This document shows, in pieces, positions 7,367 through 32,110 of a DNA stretch of 32,936 nucleotides. The notes under the pieces were generated by a model. That model saw only the letters and a list, made by a program, of their open reading frames with translations, was not told where the DNA came from and ran no database searches. The stretch spans positions 919 to 33,854 of the forward strand of contig JAOADM010000012.1 in the NCBI GenBank assembly GCA_026417315.1, read 5' to 3'. Position numbers and translations under genes: made by a program. The DNA comes from Limisphaera sp. (GTDB lineage: Bacteria > Verrucomicrobiota > Verrucomicrobiia > Limisphaerales > Limisphaeraceae). Numbering within the stretch: position 1 is the first letter of the stretch; the number at the start of each line of letters is the position of its first letter.

Positions 7367-10300
7367 CTATCGGGCAGCGCGGTCCGTGCCGGCCAGTGCC
7401 GACTCGACCTCACCCAGGGGGCGGCCATCCAGACACGCGCGGACGATTGCCGCCAGTTTTTTCGGCGTGTAGGGCTTGGGTAGAAACGCCCCGGCAAGAT
7501 GTTCCAGACCCTCGGCGCTCAGCTCGTGGCTGTAACCGCTCGAGAAAATGACTTTCAGATCCGGGCGATCCTCGCGCAATCGGGCTGCCAGTTGTCGGCC
7601 GTTCAAGCCGCCCGGCATCACCATGTCGGTGATGACCAGGTCAATGCTGTCGCGGTGGGTTCGCCACAGTTCCAGAGCCTCCGGCCCGCTGGCGGCGGCC
7701 AGGACCTGGTAGCCGAGCCGGCGGAGTCCGTTGACCAACATCAGGCGCAGGGCGGGCTCGTCCTCCACGGCCAGGATGGTCTCCCGGCCCTTGTGCAGGT
7801 CGGCCGCCTCGGCGGTTTTGGCAGGGGCCGCGGGGGCGGGCCCGGGCGGGAAGTACACGCGGAAGGTGCTGCCGCGCCCGGGCTGGCTTTCGACCTCGAT
7901 CCATCCGTTGTGTTGTTTGACGATGCCGAAGACCGTGGCCAGACCGAGCCCGGACCCTTTGCCGAAGGGTTTGGTGGTAAAGAACGGTTCGAAAATGTGC
8001 CGCATCGTTTCGGCGTCCATGCCAATCCCGGTGTCGGTAACGCTGAGGCAGACGTGAACGCCCGGCACCGCTTCGGCGCAGCGCTGCAAGTGCGTGTCGG
8101 TGACGGTGACGCGTTCGGTCCGGATCGTGAGCGTGCCGCCTTCGGGCATGGCATCCCGGGCATTGACGGCCAGATTGACGATCACCTGCTCGATCATGGC
8201 GACATCGGCCCGGATGCTCGGCAGGTCCCGGGCCAGCTCCCAACGCAACTCGATGTGTTCTCCCAACAGGCGCCGGAGCATTTTGCCCATGTCGCTGACA
8301 ATCTCATTGAGGTTGGCCGCCTGAACGTTCATGACCTGCTTGCGACTGAAGGCCAGCAGTTGCCGGGTCAGATCGGCGGCGCGCGTGGCGGCGCGCTGGA
8401 TTTCCTGGAGAGACTCCTGGACCGGAGCAGGCCATTCACCTTCGCTCAACAGCAGGCCGGTGTGCCCCAGGATGACGGTCATGATGTTGTTGTAATCGTG
8501 AGCCACCCCGGCGGCCAGTTGCCCGACTGACTCCAGCCGTTGCATTTGTTGGAGCTGCGCCTCCAGCCGTCGACGTTCGGACAGGTCCCGGGCGACGCAT
8601 TCAAAGCCCACCTGATGCCCGTTTCGCCGCAACAGTTGCAGGTGCAATTCGAAAATGCGAGTGACGGAGCCGGAGGACGCGGCTCGGGCTTCGAACGGGG
8701 CGGCCGTTTTCCCTGCGCGCAAGGCCGCCATGACCTCTTCGATGCGTGACCGGTCGTCCGGATGAAACAACTCCAGGAACGGCCGACCTAGCAGGGCGGC
8801 CGCCTCGGTTTGGAAGGCCGCTTCCGCGGCGCGGTTGGCGGCCGTCAGTCGCCCGTCCGCATCGGTCACCAGGATCACGTCCCCGGCATGATCGAACAGG
8901 TCCTGGTACCGTTGTTTGAGCTCCAGCTCGTTGTGGTAGCGCTCTTCCAGTTCGCGGGTTTGCTGACGGACCTTGCGACGCAGGGCGATCACCCAGGCGA
9001 ACGCCAGCGCGGCCGCGCCCGTGGCCGCCGCCCCTGCCCAGGCCATCTGACGTCGGGTGATCCGCGGGGGGCCTGCCAACAGCGCCACGTCCGTGCCCTC
9101 GGCGGCCCAGAGGCGAAAGGCCCGGGGCTGTCGCCATTCATCGGTTTGCACCTGACAGACGCCGGTGACCGCCACGCGACTGCCCGGCTTCAGGCGCGCC
9201 AGTTCGGGTCGGGGCGCGTCCTCGGCGAAAAAGACGTGGAACACCGTGCCGGCTTCCTGCAGGGTGAGGTACGGGCGGGGCAACTGGCTCAGATTCTCCA
9301 ACAGGTGGCCTTCCACCTGCACGCGGCGTCCCTCCAATTCTCCACTCAGGAGCGCCTCGGGTGCGGCACGGACGGCCTCCGGGAGCCGGGCCGGACCTAC
9401 GATCCGCAGGGCAGGCCTGTCGAGGGTGGGTAACAAGCTTCCGGGTACGGGGAATCCCACGACTTCGATACGTTGACCCGGTGTGACCGACACGGTTGGC
9501 GATCGCAGCCATAGCCCGCCCGTTTCGTCCTGGAGGGCGATGGATCCGTTGGTGTGCGCGAAGGTGACCACCCCGGACACTTTCACCGGCCGGGGATTGG
9601 CCTGGTCGCTGCGAAAGGCGAGCAACTGGCTGATCGCTACGGTCTCACGGGCGAACGGGTCCGTGGGAACCGGCTCGAGAAACTCGAGCCACGCTTCTCC
9701 GGGGATGTGAAGGGTAATGCCGGTCAATTGACGTCGGGCGTTGGCGCGGGCCCCGACCACGCCAATGGCTCGGGCTTCGAGGCCGACCCAGGCCTCGGGC
9801 GCCGGTTGGTTACCCCAGCCTTGCAACCAGGCGGTCAGTCCGCCCCGCCGTGTGGCCAGGTCGAGCTCCAGATTTGGCCCGACACGCCTGACCCCTCGCA
9901 CGGTGGCCCGCAGCTCCACCCACTGGCAGTCCAGCAAGCCGGAGAGCAGACGCATTTCGCTCGGCTGCTGCGGAGGCGGCGGATCGCCCCGCCGCACAAA
10001 GGTGACTTCTGCTTCGGCAATGATGGGGGCATACCCACCAGGGGCGGTCACCCCGCGAATTCGAACCCGATCCCCCACGGCCAGTTTCGAAAGATTGCGA
10101 AGATAGCCGACGAAGACACCATGCCCCTGCTCAGCCACGAACAGTACCCGCCACTCCGGGTCGTGGTAGGTCACCACCGCCTCCAGGGCCACCGGCCATT
10201 GCGCCGCGGCCTGCTCCGGGCTGAGGGCGCGAATCTCCTCGATGGAGCTCAGAACCTTGTCTCTTCGCGGGGGAGGTGTCGTGGGAAGGCTGGAAACAAG

Positions 10301-11323
10301 GCGAAACATTGCCTCGTCGAGCTGGATGGCTCCCGACGCATCCGACGAGACATACCCCACGGCCTCGACCTCTGCGCCGTTGGTGATCAAGAGGGCTTCC
10401 GTGCTGCGGACCTCGACCCGGCCCGTGCCATCCTCCAAAAAGAACGAACGGCCGACCACCTGATCGAAGGCGCGCCCGCGCACGCGCCGCAAAGGCACGG
10501 GCAGGCCCGAGCCGCGGAGCGCGATCAGGTCCCGCACAGTAATCAACGGGGCGCGGTAGGGATCCTTGGGGCCGGCTTCGAGGACGGTTAAATCGTCCAT
10601 CCCCAGCACGAAAAGTTGGACAGGTGCCAGATCGGCCTCGGGCTTGGGCAAGGGGAGGCGCAACCCCGTCACCTCCACGAACCCCCGGTGAATCTGCTCC
10701 AAATCGGTGAGGCTGGCATGGCGGATGTAGGCCCGCATTCGCACGGGTCCCAAATCCAGAACCAGTCGCCCTCGTTCGCCGTCCAAGGGTTCTGCAGTTC
10801 GCACCACACCCGTGACGCGGACCCGCTGGGCTTCGGACGTGGTGTTGGTGAGCAGATGGAGGGGTAGCCGCACGGGCGGAGGGAGCTCGGCCGGTCCCAG
10901 GTCCTCCACGCGCAGGTCGCGGATGTGCCGTGCTTCGCCTTCCACGGCCGTTACGCCAGTCAGTCGCACCTGGCGTCCGCCCATCAAATCCGTCAGGTGC
11001 CGGGGCGGCGGCAGAAAGAGGATGCCGGTCTCGTCTTGGAACAACAGCATGGCCCACTCGGCATCTGCGTACAGAAGGAGCCCCTCCATGCGGACGGGAT
11101 GGCCGCGGGCCATCTGATCTGGCGGGAGGGAATAGAACTGGACGACGGAGTTGACCAGGGGCAACGGGCTGGGGCCTGGCGAGCCTTCGGTGCCCGGCGC
11201 GGCCCGAGCACCGTGCCGCCCCAACACCCCCCACGCTACTGCCAGGAGCAGGGCGTGCCACCAACCCCCGCTAATCTTCCGGCCTGTGTTCAAGGTCAGT
11301 CGGTCTGTTCTGAGCCCGGTCAA
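7367..11323 (-). CDS. Hybrid sensor histidine kinase with multi-OB-like ectodomain
   Basis: This protein of about 1318 residues has, in order: a signal sequence or first membrane segment (about 20-40); a periplasmic region of about 700 residues with about seven repeated beta-rich modules; a transmembrane helix (760-782); a PAS domain (about 810-910); a HisKA domain with the phospho-accepting His942 in AAGVAHDYNNI; an HATPase domain (VNLAVNARDAM, VTDTGIGMD, GKGSGLGLA); and a C-terminal receiver domain with Asp1233 in LVITDMVMPG. It should autophosphorylate and relay to its own receiver; no output regulator is adjacent. The start is uncertain: the frame opens with a TTG at 11323 and a second TTG at 11293 gives a compact signal peptide. 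No in-frame ATG lies nearby. Confidence 0.9.
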   Translation of the reverse strand: MTGLRTDRLTLNTGRKISGGWWHALLLAVAWGVLGRHGARAAPGTEGSPGPSPLPLVNSVVQFYSLPPDQMARGHPVRMEGLLLYADAEWAMLLFQDETGILFLPPPRHLTDLMGGRQVRLTGVTAVEGEARHIRDLRVEDLGPAELPPPVRLPLHLLTNTTSEAQRVRVTGVVRTAEPLDGERGRLVLDLGPVRMRAYIRHASLTDLEQIHRGFVEVTGLRLPLPKPEADLAPVQLFVLGMDDLTVLEAGPKDPYRAPLITVRDLIALRGSGLPVPLRRVRGRAFDQVVGRSFFLEDGTGRVEVRSTEALLITNGAEVEAVGYVSSDASGAIQLDEAMFRLVSSLPTTPPPRRDKVLSSIEEIRALSPEQAAAQWPVALEAVVTYHDPEWRVLFVAEQGHGVFVGYLRNLSKLAVGDRVRIRGVTAPGGYAPIIAEAEVTFVRRGDPPPPQQPSEMRLLSGLLDCQWVELRATVRGVRRVGPNLELDLATRRGGLTAWLQGWGNQPAPEAWVGLEARAIGVVGARANARRQLTGITLHIPGEAWLEFLEPVPTDPFARETVAISQLLAFRSDQANPRPVKVSGVVTFAHTNGSIALQDETGGLWLRSPTVSVTPGQRIEVVGFPVPGSLLPTLDRPALRIVGPARLPEAVRAAPEALLSGELEGRRVQVEGHLLENLSQLPRPYLTLQEAGTVFHVFFAEDAPRPELARLKPGSRVAVTGVCQVQTDEWRQPRAFRLWAAEGTDVALLAGPPRITRRQMAWAGAAATGAAALAFAWVIALRRKVRQQTRELEERYHNELELKQRYQDLFDHAGDVILVTDADGRLTAANRAAEAAFQTEAAALLGRPFLELFHPDDRSRIEEVMAALRAGKTAAPFEARAASSGSVTRIFELHLQLLRRNGHQVGFECVARDLSERRRLEAQLQQMQRLESVGQLAAGVAHDYNNIMTVILGHTGLLLSEGEWPAPVQESLQEIQRAATRAADLTRQLLAFSRKQVMNVQAANLNEIVSDMGKMLRRLLGEHIELRWELARDLPSIRADVAMIEQVIVNLAVNARDAMPEGGTLTIRTERVTVTDTHLQRCAEAVPGVHVCLSVTDTGIGMDAETMRHIFEPFFTTKPFGKGSGLGLATVFGIVKQHNGWIEVESQPGRGSTFRVYFPPGPAPAAPAKTAEAADLHKGRETILAVEDEPALRLMLVNGLRRLGYQVLAAASGPEALELWRTHRDSIDLVITDMVMPGGLNGRQLAARLREDRPDLKVIFSSGYSHELSAEGLEHLAGAFLPKPYTPKKLAAIVRACLDGRPLGEVESALAGTDRAAR

Positions 11324-22994: not shown

Positions 22995-25694
22995 TTACCG
23001 GCCGCGGGAGGAGCCGGGCCCGGCCAGCAACACGAGTAACGCGGGCAACACGGCCAGTCCGGCCACCATGCACGCCGTAACCCCGGTGCTCATCACAAAG
23101 CCCAGGCTGGCGATGCCCTGGTGATCCGCCAGCATCAGACTGCCGAAGCCGGCCACGGTGGTCAGCCCGGAAACCAAGACGGCCTTGCCGGTGCTTTTGG
23201 CCAGCAGACCTGGTTCCTGCTCCTCGGCGAAGCGATTGAGGATGTGAATGCCGTTGGTGACGCCGATGCCCACGACCAGGGGCAGGGTCATGATGTTGGC
23301 CGGATTGAACGGCACCTCACGCCATCCCATCCAGCCTGTCATCCAGAGCATGCCCAGGCCCACGGGCAGCAGCGCCAGCACCACCGCCAGCGGACTGCGG
23401 AAGTGCCATGCCACCAGCACCGTAATGGCCGCCAACGCATACCAGGCCGCCGTTTCGTAGCTTTGTTTGAGCAGCGTGGTGTACTCGTAAAGTTGCACGG
23501 GGGTTCCGGTGGCGTCCGGATCCACCGTGCGCAGTTGCCGAACGAATTGCTCCTGAGGTTGCCGCTGCCAGACGTCGTCCTTCGGAAACACCTGCAAGAG
23601 CAACTTTCCGCTTTTGCCCACGAACCGTTCCCTCAGGGCGGGAGGCAAATCATCCAGTTGCATCGGGCCGGAGGGATCTTGTTCCTGCAGGGCCCGGAAG
23701 GTCTGTTGCAAATCGGTGAAGAAGGCGCGTTGATAGAGGCCGAGTTTGCGGGCGCGGTCGGATTCGGGGCCCAGCGATTCATCGAGCATTGCCCGCCGCG
23801 TGTCGATCACGGTGTGGCGCAGGCGTTCGAGTTGAGACGCCAGGGCCGGATCGTTCGTGCCGACGTTTTCCAGGGCCAGACCGAGATAGCCGGACAAGCC
23901 CCAGAGGGTCCGGCTCAACTCGCCCAGCGCCACGGGGGTTGCATCCGGCGGGTTCAGCCGCACCGTGGCGGCCAGCTCGCGAATCTGGCAAATGAGGTTG
24001 GACTTGGGCCCCGGTTCTGCCGCCAGGAGAGGTGCCAAGCTTTCCACACTGGCCACGGCGGGCAACTGTTCCAGCTGCGCCTGGAGTCGCTGCGCTTCCG
24101 GCAGGGAGTCGGCAATCACGACTCCGTAGAGGAGCGAGCGACCGGCGGATTCGATCAGTTTTTTTTCGAAGACGACCGCGGGCAGGCTCTGGCTTTGCAG
24201 ATTGAGCAGGTTGTAGTCGAACGGGACGCGGAGGGCCTGTCCGGCGGCCGCCACCGTCAGGAGCCCGCTGATGCCCAGGACGGTCCGGGGCCGCCTCAGC
24301 CAGAGTTGCTCGATGCGGGCCCGCACCGGTGGACGTACCGAGGTTTCATCCCAAAGGTTTTGGCGACCGGCCAACAGCAGTGCCGGCAAAAAGGTCAGCG
24401 TCGTCACCAGACAAATGAGCATGCCGCCGCCGCAGATCCAGCCCATCTCCTGAATGCCTTTGAACTGCGTCAGGCTCATCGCCAGGAATCCTCCCGCGGT
24501 GGTCAGGGCCCCGGTGCAAATGCCCTGGCCGGTGTTGACCATGGCGCGTTCGAGGGCCTGGACGCGGCCATGGCCCATCCGGAGTTCCTCCTCGTACCGT
24601 GTGACCAGGTGAATCCCGAAATCGATGGCCAGACCGACCAGGATCGGCACGAAGGTGATCGTGAGAATGTTGAGGTGCCCGACGGTGGCGGTGGCGAAGG
24701 CCAGGGTGTGGGCCACGCCGATCAGGAGCGTGGCCATGGCTTTCAAGGGGCGGCCCGTTTCGCGATAGCCCGCAATGAAGAGGGCCGCGCACAGCACCAG
24801 GGCCCAGACGCTGGCCTGCGTGGTGTCGCGTCGGGCCTGACGCATTTCGTCGTGCTCGAGCACGGTTTCGCCCGTGACGCCCACATTGACTCCGGGCACC
24901 TCCCGGCGGGTTTCCTCCACCAGCTGCCGCAGACGATCGATGGCTTCGACCTCTTTTTGTACGGAGGGCGGGTGGGTGGTCACCAGAAACAGGCGGCCCC
25001 CGTTGTAGGCCAGGTACTCGGCGTGCACGGCTTCTTCGCCGGCATTGAACAAAGCCGACACACCGGGGGAGGGCGGCAGGCCGGGGCGATGCAACGAGGC
25101 GGCCGCCTGGGACAGGATGCGTTCCAGCGCCGGCAGGGCCTCCAGCAACGCCTGCTGTTGTTCGGGGGCCGCGTTGCGCGAGGTCCGGAACCACGTGTTC
25201 ACCTGGTCGAAGAGCGACACTAGGTTGGTGGCGCCGGCCAGGGACCGCAGAAACGGCTGATAGGCCTGCAACTGATCGCGCAGGGATTGCAGCTGGCTCT
25301 CCGACAGCAGATGAAGGGCTTTGTTGCCCAGCAGCTTGAGATCGCCCTTGTAAAAGACGCGGGGAAACAGCTCGGGCTCCCGCTCCAGCCGCGCGGCGAG
25401 GCGTTCGACGAACTGGCGATTGGCCTCGGCATCGTCGCTCTCCACCACCACCACCAGGTCGTCGGGCTTGGGGAACTCTTCGCGGAATCGCAGGAAGTTC
25501 TGGTGGTAGCGGAGTTGTTTGCCGACCAGGTTGCCGCGGCTGGTGTCGAACTGCAGATGCTGAACGGTGTACAGTACGCCCGCCGCGGCCAGCACCAGAT
25601 GCGCGAGGAGAAACCAGCGGGGTTGGCGACAGACGGCGCCGGCCAACCGGTGCAAGAGCGAGGGCAGCCAGCGGTCCAGCCGCAGCGTCTTCAT
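22995..25694 (-). CDS. RND superfamily exporter (MMPL/HpnN-like)
   Basis: This 899-residue inner-membrane protein has the two-fold RND plan. A first helix after a basic N terminus (WFLLAHLVLAAAGVLYTV) leads to a large periplasmic loop from FDTSRGNLVGKQ to about residue 260, then a block of helices (VWALVLCAALFIAGY, LTFLPALLLAG). The plan repeats with a second loop (about 480-720) and a second block (WYALAAITVLVAWHF, VAGLAVLPALLVLLAG). Such MMPL-type proteins, including HpnN, move hydrophobic compounds such as hopanoids or lipids to the outer membrane. No hopanoid genes are in view, so the substrate is open. The ATG at 25694 is preferred to the TTG at 25703. A terminator-like hairpin lies 8 bases upstream. 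Confidence 0.88.
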   Translation of the reverse strand: MKTLRLDRWLPSLLHRLAGAVCRQPRWFLLAHLVLAAAGVLYTVQHLQFDTSRGNLVGKQLRYHQNFLRFREEFPKPDDLVVVVESDDAEANRQFVERLAARLEREPELFPRVFYKGDLKLLGNKALHLLSESQLQSLRDQLQAYQPFLRSLAGATNLVSLFDQVNTWFRTSRNAAPEQQQALLEALPALERILSQAAASLHRPGLPPSPGVSALFNAGEEAVHAEYLAYNGGRLFLVTTHPPSVQKEVEAIDRLRQLVEETRREVPGVNVGVTGETVLEHDEMRQARRDTTQASVWALVLCAALFIAGYRETGRPLKAMATLLIGVAHTLAFATATVGHLNILTITFVPILVGLAIDFGIHLVTRYEEELRMGHGRVQALERAMVNTGQGICTGALTTAGGFLAMSLTQFKGIQEMGWICGGGMLICLVTTLTFLPALLLAGRQNLWDETSVRPPVRARIEQLWLRRPRTVLGISGLLTVAAAGQALRVPFDYNLLNLQSQSLPAVVFEKKLIESAGRSLLYGVVIADSLPEAQRLQAQLEQLPAVASVESLAPLLAAEPGPKSNLICQIRELAATVRLNPPDATPVALGELSRTLWGLSGYLGLALENVGTNDPALASQLERLRHTVIDTRRAMLDESLGPESDRARKLGLYQRAFFTDLQQTFRALQEQDPSGPMQLDDLPPALRERFVGKSGKLLLQVFPKDDVWQRQPQEQFVRQLRTVDPDATGTPVQLYEYTTLLKQSYETAAWYALAAITVLVAWHFRSPLAVVLALLPVGLGMLWMTGWMGWREVPFNPANIMTLPLVVGIGVTNGIHILNRFAEEQEPGLLAKSTGKAVLVSGLTTVAGFGSLMLADHQGIASLGFVMSTGVTACMVAGLAVLPALLVLLAGPGSSRGR

Positions 25695-25701
25695 GGCCGG
25701 C

Positions 25702-25724
25702 AAAAACAGCGCAGGGCCCCGCGC
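25702..25724 (-). terminator. Terminator hairpin abutting the RND start codon
   Basis: On the minus strand GCGCGG and CTGCGC pair over 6 bp (one G-U) with a GGCC loop (25724-25709), followed by TG and T5 (25706-25702). It lies between yebC and the RND exporter, with only 7 bases from the T run to the RND ATG. It may end the yebC transcript or act as an attenuator. Confidence 0.5.
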
Positions 25725-26957: not shown

Positions 26958-27146
26958 CCGCTCTCCGGAAGAAAGCACGTTCCCACGCAAAGCGGCCCGG
27001 CGCATTGCCCCCTGCACGGTGCCCTCGGCCGGGCCGCGCGGATGCGGGACCCGGTCCCCCAACCCCTCCGTGCCCGGAGGCCCGTCCGGCGTGCCCACGC
27101 TTCCCCGAACGCCCCGCTGCGGGACCGAGGGTGGCCAAGATGCGCG

Positions 27147-27174
27147 TTGCGCCCGGCGGGCGCACGGCTACATT
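27147..27174 (+). promoter_or_regulatory. Candidate promoter of mqnC
   Basis: TTGCGC (27147-27152), a 16-base spacer and TACATT (27169-27174) end 10 bases before the ATG at 27185. This argues against the in-frame ATG at 27140, which would lie upstream of the promoter. Confidence 0.5.
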
Positions 27175-27184
27175 CGAGCCTGGC

Positions 27185-28324
27185 ATGGACGCGACCCCAT
27201 TGGACACGTTGCTGCAGAAGGTCTGGAACGGCGAGCGCATCCAGCCCGAGGAGGCCCGGCGGCTTTACGACTTGCCGCTGCCGGAACTGGGGATGCTGGC
27301 CGACCGACGACGCCAACTGGCCAAGGCCCGGGCCTACGAGGGCCGCGGCGCCCAAATCGTCACCTACATCATCGACCGCAACATCAATTACACCAACGTC
27401 TGCAACGTGTACTGCAAGTTTTGCGCCTTCTATCGGACCACACGGGATCCGGACGCGTACGTGATCAGCTTCGAAGAGCTGGATCGCAAAATCGAGGAAA
27501 CCCTGGCCCTCGGGGGCACGCAGATCCTGTTGCAGGGAGGCCATCACCCCGGATTGTCCAAGCAGTGGTACCTGGACATGCTCCATCACATCCACAGCCG
27601 CTTCCCGCAAATCAACATCCACGGATTCAGCCCGCCGGAATTCATTCACTTTCAGAAGGTCTTCGAGGAGCCGGTCGAACAGATCCTGCGGGATTTCCGA
27701 GCTGCGGGACTGGGTTCGATCCCCGGCGGGGGGGCGGAGATTTTGGTGGACCGCGTCCGCCGGCGCATCGCCCCGCTCAAAGCCACGGCGGAAGAATGGC
27801 TGCACGTGATGGAGACAGCCCACCGACTCGGCCTGTGTTCGACCGCCACGATGATGTTCGGTCATGTCGAGACGGTGGAGGATCGCATCGAACATCTGGA
27901 ACGCCTGCGCTCGTTGCAGGACCGGTCCCTGCAACGGGCGGGCAACGCCCGTGCCACCGGCCCCGGGGCCCCCACCGGCGGATACTTCACGGCGTTCATC
28001 GGATGGACCTTTCAGCCGGAAAACACCAGGCTGCGATTGCCCCGGGCCGGGGCCCAGGAGTACCTGCGCACCCAGGCACTGGCGCGGATTTACCTCGACA
28101 ACTTTGAGAATGTGCAGAGCTCCTGGGTCACCCAGGGGCCCGAGATTGGCCAGTTGGGTCTGCGTTTCGGCGCCAACGACCTGGGCAGCATCATGATCGA
28201 AGAAAACGTGGTGCGCCAGGCCGGGGCGGCCTTCCGGATGACCGTGGCGGACATGCACCGGTTGATCCGGGACCTGGGCTATGAACCGCGCCAGCGCGAC
28301 AACTGGTATCGGTTGGTCAACTGA
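27185..28324 (+). CDS. mqnC: Cyclic dehypoxanthinyl futalosine synthase (radical SAM)
   Basis: This 379-residue radical SAM enzyme of the futalosine menaquinone pathway cyclises dehypoxanthine futalosine. The 4Fe-4S cluster motif CNVYCKFC has Cys73, Cys77 and Cys80. Other family blocks are GAQIVTYIIDRNINYTNVC, GGTQILLQGGHHPGL, HGFSPPEF, GSIPGGGAEIL, TATMMFGHVE and FTAFIGWTFQPENT. The start at 27185 matches the usual family beginning and the promoter. An insertion of about 17 residues interrupts the normally continuous LQDxTGG segment near residue 247; it is encoded by a palindromic DNA stretch. No other mqn gene lies in the window, so the pathway must be scattered, as is common. Confidence 0.93.
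   Translation: MDATPLDTLLQKVWNGERIQPEEARRLYDLPLPELGMLADRRRQLAKARAYEGRGAQIVTYIIDRNINYTNVCNVYCKFCAFYRTTRDPDAYVISFEELDRKIEETLALGGTQILLQGGHHPGLSKQWYLDMLHHIHSRFPQINIHGFSPPEFIHFQKVFEEPVEQILRDFRAAGLGSIPGGGAEILVDRVRRRIAPLKATAEEWLHVMETAHRLGLCSTATMMFGHVETVEDRIEHLERLRSLQDRSLQRAGNARATGPGAPTGGYFTAFIGWTFQPENTRLRLPRAGAQEYLRTQALARIYLDNFENVQSSWVTQGPEIGQLGLRFGANDLGSIMIEENVVRQAGAAFRMTVADMHRLIRDLGYEPRQRDNWYRLVN
27912..27951. repeat. Back-to-back palindromes inside mqnC
   Basis: CGTTGCAGG (27912-27920) and CCTGCAACG (27928-27936) form a perfect 9-bp inverted repeat with a 7-base loop. A second repeat, CGGGCG (27935-27940) with CGCCCG (27946-27951), follows at once. They overlap the in-frame insertion in the encoded protein, which repeats RSLQ. 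Confidence 0.6.
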
Positions 28325-28894: not shown

Positions 28895-29560
28895 TCACCC
28901 GCGGGCCGGGTACCCGTTCCGAAACGCCCACAACGTTACCATGGTGAACGGCGCCAACACCGCGGCCAGAGTTGCCTCGGCCACTCGGCCCCAACATGCC
29001 CCCAGCCAGAGGAGGTTCCAACCCACCCACAGCAGAAACGCCCCGACCGGAGGCAACGAGGGCACGGGCCGTTTGTCCAGCAGTGCCGGCACCGCCCCCG
29101 CCAGGGCCAACAGATGCGCCAGCCACAACCCGGGCAACCAATCGAAGACAATGCCCTCCCACGCGCAGCGCGGCTGGCTCCACTCGTAGGCTCCCCACAC
29201 GCGTCGGCAGAACAAATCAATGGCTGTCTGCGGGATCAACGCCAGGGTTGCTGCCACCAGCCAGAGTCGGAGGCCAGGATTCGAGCCCGCCCGGGCCCGG
29301 GCCAGGAGCCATTGAGCAGCGAACCGGGCCGACAAAAGACTCAAAGGCCAGGCCACGAGCACCAGCCCGGTCAGCTTCTTGGCCGCCACTGGCCCATCCA
29401 AGATTTTGCTGCCGAGGGGCCAGCCTCGGGCGCGATTCCACGTTTCCACACCCCAACCCACGGCTGCCATCACCAAAGCGGCGAGCAGTAGGTTCTGCAG
29501 CGGCAGCCAACCTCGTGAGGGCGTTCTGCCGGTCTCTGTGCTTTCGGGATCGTTTCCCAT
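28895..29560 (-). CDS. Predicted multi-pass membrane protein, function unknown
   Basis: This 221-residue hydrophobic protein has about five or six predicted membrane helices, including LLLAALVMAAVGWGVETW, LTGLVLVAWPLSLLSARFAA, LRLWLVAATLALIPQTAIDLF, LPGLWLAHLLALAGAVPAL, PVGAFLLWVGWNLLWLGA and ATLAAVLAPFTMVTLWAF. It is rich in Trp. I do not recognise a family or catalytic motif. The sustained hydrophobic helix pattern in this frame, and its absence in the other frames, support a real gene. The start at 29560 is the first ATG, with no visible Shine-Dalgarno site. It converges with the TPR gene with 23 bases between. Confidence 0.6.
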   Translation of the reverse strand: MGNDPESTETGRTPSRGWLPLQNLLLAALVMAAVGWGVETWNRARGWPLGSKILDGPVAAKKLTGLVLVAWPLSLLSARFAAQWLLARARAGSNPGLRLWLVAATLALIPQTAIDLFCRRVWGAYEWSQPRCAWEGIVFDWLPGLWLAHLLALAGAVPALLDKRPVPSLPPVGAFLLWVGWNLLWLGACWGRVAEATLAAVLAPFTMVTLWAFRNGYPARG

Positions 29561-29835: not shown

Positions 29836-30954
29836 GTGATTCGGAACGTGATTTTGGACTGGTCGGGCACGCTGGTGGACGATCTGGAGGCGGTGTGGGA
29901 GGCGACGAATCATGTGCTGCGCCGGGCGGGCCGTTCGGAGATGGATTTGGAGACGTTTCGGGCCGAGTTCTGTCTGCCCTTTGTGCGGTTTTATGAGCGG
30001 CACGTGCCGGAGGTCCCGCTGGCACAACTGGAGCGTTGGTTTCACGAGCATTTCGGCCGGGCTCAGGAGCGTGTCGTGGCCCTGCCCCATGCGCGGGAGT
30101 TCCTGAGGTTTTGTCGCGAGGCCGGGCTGCGCACGTTCGTCTTGAGCACGGTCAAGCGCGAGTACTTCGAGGTGCAGGCGCGGCAGACGGGCCTGGAGCG
30201 CTGGCTGGACGCGGCCTACGTCGAGGCCTGGGACAAGCGTCTGTGGATTGGTCGGCTCTTGTCGGAGCAGCAAGCCGCTGCCGGGGAGACGCTCTTCGTG
30301 GGGGACATGCAACACGACATCGAGACCGCCCGGCATGGGGGCGTGGGGGCCTGTGCGGTTCTGACCGGTTACAACACGCTCCCCCAGCTGCAGGCGGCGA
30401 AGCCGGATCTCATCGTGGAACATCTGGGAGAATTGGAAGAGTACCTGGAGCTCTTCCAGTTTGCCTGGCCGCCACCGGCGGCATTTTCAGCCGCCCGCGG
30501 GCCCGTGGTGACGGTGGGGGCGGCAGTGTTCAATGAGCGGGACGAGGTCCTGCTGGTGCGCACGGCCAAGTGGTCCGGCCGCTGGGGCATCCCCGGCGGC
30601 AAGGTGCGGCGGCAGGAGCGTTGCGAGGAGGCGTTGCGCCGCGAACTGCGCGAGGAGACCGGCCTGGAGGTGAGCGGGATCCGGCTCGTGGGGGTGCAGG
30701 ACTGCATTCGGCCGGAGGAGTTCTATCGGCCCGCTCACTTCGTGCTGCTTTGTTACACGTGTCGTGTGGTCGGCCGGCCGCAAGTGCGGTTGAACGGGGA
30801 AAGCCAGGCCTGGAAATGGTTGCCCCTGCAAGCGGCTCTGGAGGAGGATCTCAACGAACCTTCCCGGCGTTTGTTGCAAGCGCTGTGGCAACGAAGCACG
30901 GCCGACGCGGACCCCATGGACCGTTCCCCCTTGGCAGAAGGCTTGGCGCTTTGA
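29836..30954 (+). CDS. HAD phosphatase - Nudix hydrolase fusion
   Basis: This 372-residue cytoplasmic fusion has two domains. The HAD domain (about 1-215) has the nucleophile Asp8 in DWSGTL, a Lys region (STVKREYFE) and the metal loop FVGDMQHD. Ser10 stands where most HAD phosphatases have the general-acid Asp. The Nudix domain (about 222-350) carries a perfect Nudix box, Gly255 to Leu277 (GX5EX7REUXEEXGU), and is preceded by SGRWGIPGG. Nudix enzymes split X-linked nucleoside diphosphates and HAD enzymes remove phosphate. Since folB starts 13 bases later, I infer action on dihydroneopterin triphosphate and then monophosphate. The alternative is a house-cleaning nucleotide enzyme. The start is a GTG supported by the promoter. 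Confidence 0.85.
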   Translation: MIRNVILDWSGTLVDDLEAVWEATNHVLRRAGRSEMDLETFRAEFCLPFVRFYERHVPEVPLAQLERWFHEHFGRAQERVVALPHAREFLRFCREAGLRTFVLSTVKREYFEVQARQTGLERWLDAAYVEAWDKRLWIGRLLSEQQAAAGETLFVGDMQHDIETARHGGVGACAVLTGYNTLPQLQAAKPDLIVEHLGELEEYLELFQFAWPPPAAFSAARGPVVTVGAAVFNERDEVLLVRTAKWSGRWGIPGGKVRRQERCEEALRRELREETGLEVSGIRLVGVQDCIRPEEFYRPAHFVLLCYTCRVVGRPQVRLNGESQAWKWLPLQAALEEDLNEPSRRLLQALWQRSTADADPMDRSPLAEGLAL

Positions 30955-30967
30955 AAGGGAACCGTGC

Positions 30968-31339
30968 ATGGCCACGATTACGGTCACAGACCTGGAGGTT
31001 TTTTATCGTGTAGGCGTCACTGAGGCGGAACGCGCGCACCCGCAACGGCTGTTGTTGACGGTCGAGTTGGAGGTGGACGAATCCGCCGCCGCGGCCACGG
31101 ATGACCTGGCCAATACCATCGACTACTACGAATTGACGCGGCAGCTGATCCGGTTTGGAGAGGGTCGGAACTGGCGGCTGCTGGAGCGGCTGGCCGCCGA
31201 GATCGCCGACTTCATCCTGACGCGCTACCGTCCGCTGGCCGTAACCGTGGAGGTGAAAAAGTTCGTACTGCCCGAGGCCCGGCATGTCTCGGTGCGGGTC
31301 GGCCGCCGCGGTCCGGCCGCTCCGGTTCAGCCGGGATAA
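30968..31339 (+). CDS. folB: Dihydroneopterin aldolase
   Basis: This 123-residue protein has the usual FolB length and plan. It starts ITVTDLEVFYRVGVTEAER, has TIDYYELTRQL (with the active-site Tyr region) and ends with VTVEVKKFVLPEARHVSVRV, where the Lys of the KKF segment fits the catalytic lysine. FolB cleaves dihydroneopterin to 6-hydroxymethyl-dihydropterin in folate synthesis. AAGGGA lies about 8 bases before the ATG. It follows the HAD-Nudix gene by 13 bases, so the two are one transcript. Its last 13 bases overlap the 3' end of the convergent CBS gene. Confidence 0.93.
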   Translation: MATITVTDLEVFYRVGVTEAERAHPQRLLLTVELEVDESAAAATDDLANTIDYYELTRQLIRFGEGRNWRLLERLAAEIADFILTRYRPLAVTVEVKKFVLPEARHVSVRVGRRGPAAPVQPG

Positions 31340-31779
31340 CCCCCTGCAATGTAGGTCTCCAGTTGCCGGATGGTCTGGCTCTGCTGATTGATGACCCAGT
31401 TGACCAGATCGCCGATGGAGACAATGCCCACGACTTTTTGATTGTCCAACACGGGCAGATGCCGGATGCGATGCTCGGTCATCAGGCGCAGTCCGTCCTC
31501 CACCGAGTGCTGCGGGCTGACGCAGATCACACGGTCGGAGAGAATCTCCCGCACGCGCGTCTCCTTGGAGGAACGGCCGCGCAGGGCGACCTTTCGGGTG
31601 TAATCGCGCTCGGAGAAGATTCCCACCAGCCGGTCCCCGTCCATCACCAGCAGAGCCCCGACGTTTTTCTCGGCCAGCCGCTGGATGGCCTCGAACACAG
31701 TGGCATCAGGCTCGATGGTCCAGACCTGGTGTCCCTTGTGATTGAGGATGTCGCCGATGGTGCCGGTGCACTGGATCAT
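31327..31779 (-). CDS. CBS-domain pair protein
   Basis: This 150-residue stand-alone protein has two CBS repeats. The first is about residues 12-68 (VWTIEPDATVFEAIQRLAEKNVGALLV, DRLVGIFSERDYTRKV) and the second about 76-135 (VICVSPQHSVEDGLRLMTEHRIRHLPVLDNQKVVGIVSIGDLV). CBS pairs bind adenosyl ligands such as AMP, ATP or SAM and regulate partner proteins. No partner domain is attached and none of the neighbours suggests one. The ATG at 31779 matches the natural family start, although the frame is open further up. The end overlaps folB by 13 bases. Confidence 0.9.
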   Translation of the reverse strand: MIQCTGTIGDILNHKGHQVWTIEPDATVFEAIQRLAEKNVGALLVMDGDRLVGIFSERDYTRKVALRGRSSKETRVREILSDRVICVSPQHSVEDGLRLMTEHRIRHLPVLDNQKVVGIVSIGDLVNWVINQQSQTIRQLETYIAGGYPG

Positions 31780-32110
31780 AGGCTGGTTCCGTGGTTGCGT
31801 GTGCTCGTGTTCGGGGGCTTGCCGCGGACGGACTCGCACTCCGCGGGCGGCCCACACGCTCAATCTAGTCCAGACCGCAAGGGCTGCCCACGAAAAAGTT
31901 CGTGAATTGGAAGGTACGAGCGGCCATCCCAAGGGCCCGCCCCCATGCCCTGCCCTCCGTCGGGCTGCCGTTCACGGCAACCGGTCCGACCGACCACCGG
32001 CCTCGGCCGGCTCGGGACCGACAGGGCAAAAGACGGGCCGGCCCGCGGCCCGGGGGTCTCGCGGGCCGCGGGCGCCCCGGCTCAAAGAAGTCGGCCGGGG
32101 ATCGTCCGCT
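31780..32110. other. Intergenic region between CBS gene and rng
   Basis: This 331-base gap lies between two minus-strand genes. I see no gene in it. It has a 6-bp inverted repeat CACGAA/TTCGTG (31889-31904), a TAGATT box on the minus strand at 31871-31866 with no good -35, and two tandem stem-loops at 32041-32100 directly after the rng stop. Confidence 0.45.
32041..32073 (-). terminator. 12-bp GC hairpin downstream of rng
   Basis: GCCCGCGGCCCG (32041-32052) and CGGGCCGCGGGC (32062-32073) form a perfect 12-bp stem with a 9-base loop. A second stem, CCCCGGC/GCCGGGG (32075-32081 with 32094-32100), sits between it and the rng stop. On the minus strand CGGCCCGTCTTTTG follows the larger stem, so termination is plausible but the T run is short. 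Confidence 0.5.

Follow-up and report, generated by a model that had tools for sequence, protein, structure and literature searches.

In the usual folate pathway, dihydroneopterin aldolase (FolB) acts on the free alcohol; the pyrophosphatase gene of the pathway is missing in most bacteria as surveyed, and the last phosphate removal has been left to a non-specific phosphatase (PMC1971073). Known enzymes for the first of these removals are the Nudix proteins FolQ of Lactococcus lactis and NudB of Escherichia coli, pyrophosphohydrolases of 7,8-dihydroneopterin triphosphate (DHNTP). Table 2 of PMC1971073 marks both FolQ and FolB of Parachlamydia UWE25 as fused, a precedent, in another PVC-group bacterium from a related phylum, for a pyrophosphohydrolase physically coupled to FolB. 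No HAD is mentioned in that case, whereas in the Verrucomicrobiota described here a HAD domain is the constant partner of FolB and is fused to it in one clade. In HAD phosphatases generally, the second Asp of motif I serves as the general acid/base (PMC8069645).

We analysed a stretch of 32,936 nucleotides (the window) from a draft genome of Limisphaera sp. (3.79 Mb, 86.7% complete), in which a HAD domain and a Nudix domain are joined in one gene next to folB (Table 1). An earlier note on this DNA, made from the letters and their open reading frames, had described the two domains as sharing a single open reading frame, and Pfam bears this out with matches to HAD_2 (PF13419) at residues 5–175 (E 3.3e-15) and to NUDIX (PF00293) at residues 224–349 (E 2.6e-28, 99 bits) of the 372-residue product. 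The GTG start of the gene is kept in most relatives. AlphaFold2 modelled the whole protein with a mean pLDDT of 90.2 and the HAD domain alone with a pLDDT of 95.5. Searched with Foldseek, the HAD half resembles the C1-cap small-molecule phosphatases 2ah5, 3mc1 and 2hsz, with a best TM score of 0.90 to 2ah5, and model and comparison alike show a C1-cap HAD fold with a helical cap; 2iof and 2ioh are also detectable structural matches. NudI provides the nearest solved structures to the Nudix half. With its gene placed immediately ahead of folB throughout a large group of Verrucomicrobiota, and its HAD half joined to FolB in some relatives, the HAD-Nudix protein is a strong candidate for the unassigned phosphate-removing steps that precede FolB.

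Table 1. Features of the window, with positions counted from its first nucleotide
Feature	Position	Strand	Remarks
HAD-Nudix fusion gene	29836–30954	+	372 aa; GTG start
HAD domain (C1 cap)	29836–30450	+	Pfam PF13419; invariant residues; PGP-type phosphatase fold
Nudix domain with Nudix box (residues 255–277)	30496–30885	+	PF00293
folB, dihydroneopterin aldolase	30968–31339	+	123 aa; PF02152, E 6.6e-25; only FolB in the genome
K-F-[VI]-[IL]-P motif of FolB	about 31256–31270		Shared by HAD-linked FolBs, in place of the usual K-P-x-A
CBS-domain protein	31327–31932	-	Converges on folB
Predicted protein, upstream	28895–29560	-	221 aa; unmatched in Pfam and NCBIfam
MqnC, cyclic dehypoxanthinyl futalosine synthase, upstream	27005–28324	+	TIGR03699, 451.9 bits (cut-off 428.1)
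MMPL-family transporter, large	22995–25703	-	902-aa ORF
Hybrid histidine kinase	7367–11323	-	

Among the other genes of the window, the predicted 221-residue protein has hydrophobic stretches that suggest a membrane protein. The presence of MqnC makes the futalosine route to menaquinone probable in the host.

The Nudix box, GKVRRQERCEEALRRELREETGL, fits the Nudix superfamily pattern GX5EX7REUXEEXGU and is invariant, catalytic residues included, across 99 full-length fusions, in agreement with the earlier description of the box as intact. The stretch KWSxxWGIPGGK in the same domain is also invariant among relatives. With FolQ and NudB the domain has in common the Nudix fold, the intact box and the same proposed reaction on DHNTP, and FolQ was likewise found through linkage to folate genes (PMC1971073). 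It differs from them in being fused to a HAD domain, in having NudI as its nearest structures, and in scoring too low for the NudB family (24.5 bits with model NF006961, cut-off 103). In 37 genomes, some carrying the fusion and others lacking it, NF006961 identified no NudB-type protein at all (0/37); because such a protein is absent from genomes that lack the fusion too, its absence is uninformative, and we dropped it as support for a role of the fusion.

The HAD domain has the nucleophilic Asp (D8), the motif II Ser/Thr (in the region of S104), the motif III Lys (K134, within DKR) and the acidic pair of motif IV (D157 and D161, within GDMQHD). The 99 full-length fusions show no variation at D8, K134, D157 or D161 and almost none at S104. 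The cap also has conserved aromatic residues (F41, F45, F52 and Y53), which might hold the pterin. Motif I, on which the earlier note is silent, reads DWSGT in all loci of the family checked, with Ser10 where a second Asp is usual, and in none of those loci did we find the DxD form in which the second Asp is the general acid/base; the closest HAD paralogue encoded by the host, by contrast, carries the canonical DIDGT. In overall fold and in motifs II–IV the domain is like the C1-cap HADs of phosphoglycolate phosphatase type represented by the three PDB entries above, from which it is set apart by an identity of 15–20%, by DWSGT in place of DxDGT, and by its linkage to folB. Phosphoglycolate phosphatase models are the nearest named HAD models, at 41–60 bits against cut-offs of 180–466; the score for TIGR01449 is 41.5 bits, where 180 is needed.

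Given Ser10, the HAD domain is a putative phosphatase. One reading is that the domain is not a phosphatase and instead binds FolB as a scaffold, a regulator or a slow phosphotransferase, leaving the chemistry to the Nudix domain where there is one; an invariant DWSGT with Ser at the acid/base position would fit this, and so would the behaviour of the C1-cap subfamily PcrP/PA2803, which is reported to bind proteins and to have lost its catalytic residues (PMC12632274). We think this unlikely because, unlike PcrP, the present family keeps the nucleophile Asp, the motif II Ser/Thr, the motif III Lys and both Asp residues of motif IV without change or almost so. It is also at odds with the working of other HADs: P-type ATPases (DKTGT, with Thr) and phosphonatases (DWAGT, with Ala) have no Asp at that position, yet the aspartyl intermediate forms and the enzymes work, so Ser10 does not exclude catalysis. 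Phosphonoacetaldehyde hydrolase and PhnX-like HADs, to which 2iof and 2ioh correspond, resemble the window HAD in having no Asp at +2 of motif I, and their motif I starts with D-W as this one does. They differ from it in that their models score the window protein far under their cut-offs, and no phosphonate genes were seen at the locus.

Downstream of the fusion, folB follows after an intergenic gap of 13 bp, as the earlier note had stated and as the coordinates on either side (30954 and 30968) confirm. The host FolB scores 75.6 bits against TIGR00525 (cut-off 72.15) and has the catalytic Glu, Tyr and Lys. The earlier note had also proposed a survey of genomes for fusions beside folB. In our sample of 58 genomes from the order, 47 carry the fusion and seven a HAD-only version, and of the 46 fusion genomes with an identified FolB, 45 have a same-strand folB directly downstream, as do six of the seven HAD-only genomes; FolB is single-copy in nearly all genomes of the order. 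Within a set of longer loci (n = 80), folB is present in 67 of the 74 that have room downstream, and the next real neighbour in common, a CBS-domain gene, accompanies just 13 of the 80. This is the gene that converges on folB in the window. An apparent cluster of shared neighbours in 74 loci was rejected, as it consists of antisense shadow ORFs. In a handful of genomes (L072, L074, L077, L098, L107 and G003) no folB is close to the fusion. One genome with a HAD-Nudix/folB pair has in addition a second, HAD-only paralogue that is 54% identical to the query (G046:C95:44652-45278).

The adjacency of the HAD gene and folB is thus far above chance. Gaps between fusion and folB have a median of 5.5 bp, with many overlaps of 4, 8 or 23 bp, and this spacing points to cotranscription. 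A scan of the region returned no promoter-like or terminator-like sites, a negative that carries little weight when the genome is GC-rich and non-enteric. No RNA families or tRNA were found. In Verrucomicrobiota that lack the HAD family, a HAD or Nudix gene of the family was near folB in none of the 30 best-scoring FolB loci. In several of these loci folB adjoins recognisable folP, folK or FolE-type genes, as read by eye and not by profile scan, which indicates that folB tends to lie among genes of its own pathway.

When 388 genomes of the phylum were searched with a HAD-domain profile, a wide gap separated the family (E no higher than about 1e-63) from the remaining HADs (E no lower than about 1e-24), and all clear members in this sample are in genomes with FolB. 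In one clade of the class, with genomes of 2–3.5 Mb, HAD and FolB form one protein of about 330 aa that has no Nudix domain (13 loci: L123, L125, L126, L128–L135, L143 and L145); Pfam confirmed both domains in all four of the fusions scanned. Relatives of this clade within the same family have either HAD-Nudix followed by folB or HAD alone followed by folB. Over the 28 loci sampled from the class (L120–L147), folB is fused or directly adjacent in 24; it lies about 0.75 kb from the HAD gene in L142, and in L136, L139 and L147 there is no folB within the available stretch of the locus.

On the tree, the presence of the Nudix domain needs at least 6–7 changes, while the HAD-FolB fusion forms one clade. 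The HAD-FolB pair is the constant element and Nudix has been lost or gained repeatedly; with the HAD-folB link kept throughout, it is the HAD domain that is conserved beside FolB, and the Nudix step is replaceable. We considered a detached Nudix orthologue as a substitute in HAD-only genomes and rejected it, since no orthologous stand-alone Nudix gene was found in HAD-only or HAD-FolB genomes. The absence of the domain without an orthologous replacement means that the pathway can run without it. From the folB adjacency kept across about 50 family-level lineages, the persistence of the link without Nudix, and the HAD-FolB fusion, we conclude that the HAD(-Nudix) protein very likely takes part in the pterin branch of folate synthesis.

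The same observations make it distinctly unlikely that the protein has a general house-cleaning role, disposing of damaged nucleotides or of sugar phosphates, with a folB linkage that was inherited from an ancestor and has no function. Shared history alone would not be expected to maintain the linkage in about 50 family-level lineages when the genes around it are otherwise reshuffled, nor to preserve it after loss of Nudix and yield a direct fusion to FolB. House-cleaning would nonetheless suit a Nudix domain that is nearest to NudI/MutT types and a gene that is away from folB in some genomes.

The rest of the pathway is consistent with a role in the pterin branch. The host encodes FolE2 (282 bits with the NCBIfam equivalog model, cut-off 215), its single FolB and FolK. 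Of 30 genomes from the order, 27 have FolE2, the host's among them, and all 30 have FolK. With FolE2, FolB and FolK in place, DHNTP should be made and consumed. Classical FolE was discarded as its source, being found in only 4 of the 30 genomes, in favour of FolE2. An archaeal-type MptA route, with its cyclic phosphate product, was rejected as well, as the host protein scores 161 bits against an MptA cut-off of 220 and fits FolE2.

The FolB that accompanies the HAD family differs from other FolBs beside the catalytic Lys. The host protein keeps the equivalents of E21, Y53, E73 and K98 (E. coli numbering), and P99 is replaced by F. The catalytic Lys is followed by Phe (K98-F99) in 94% of HAD-linked FolBs and by Pro (K98-P99) in 84% of HAD-less ones, the rest being gaps, a genuine difference, but one for which ancestry is a confounder, as is the selection of the HAD-less loci by best score. 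We therefore did not retain it as evidence of co-adaptation; it leaves room for an altered substrate preference of the HAD-linked FolB. A scheme in which this FolB subtype cleaves dihydroneopterin monophosphate (DHNMP) and the HAD domain then dephosphorylates the released glycolaldehyde phosphate would account for HAD-FolB fusions without Nudix, for phosphoglycolate phosphatases as nearest named models and for a pterin/side-chain pocket that may differ with F99, but we judge it very unlikely, as those model scores are far under their cut-offs, the F99/P99 contrast is confounded by ancestry, and FolB uses the free alcohol in the usual pathway (PMC1971073).

We favour, as fairly probable, a dedicated pterin dephosphorylation enzyme that works in the order Nudix, HAD, FolB, with substrates and step order that are presumed. 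FolE2 would provide DHNTP, which the Nudix domain would convert to DHNMP and pyrophosphate. The HAD domain would then release dihydroneopterin (DHN) from DHNMP, using Asp8 as nucleophile and Mg2+ held by Asp8, Asp157 and Asp161, and the neighbouring FolB would turn DHN into 6-hydroxymethyl-dihydropterin, the substrate for FolK. In this scheme the HAD domain would have to work with no second Asp, and its product may be channelled to FolB. The earlier note had proposed the fusion for dihydroneopterin dephosphorylation: its placement in the pterin branch has held, through the linkage and the HAD-FolB fusion, whereas its proposal that both steps reside in one protein we can only infer, given Ser10 and a dispensable Nudix domain. 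For its further proposal, that the product is handed to FolB, the HAD-FolB fusion is the one observation that suggests it.

In a more specific form, to which we give even chances, Verrucomicrobiia would have a dedicated DHNMP phosphatase with an unusual DxS motif I, physically united with FolB in the form of HAD-Nudix plus FolB or of a HAD-FolB fusion, so that a single assembly would carry DHNTP all the way to hydroxymethyl-dihydropterin. In the literature searched, we found no report of this HAD family together with folB. The HAD-Nudix family is a concrete single-gene candidate for both dephosphorylation steps across much of a bacterial class and, if its HAD domain is active, would be a phosphatase that works without the canonical second Asp.
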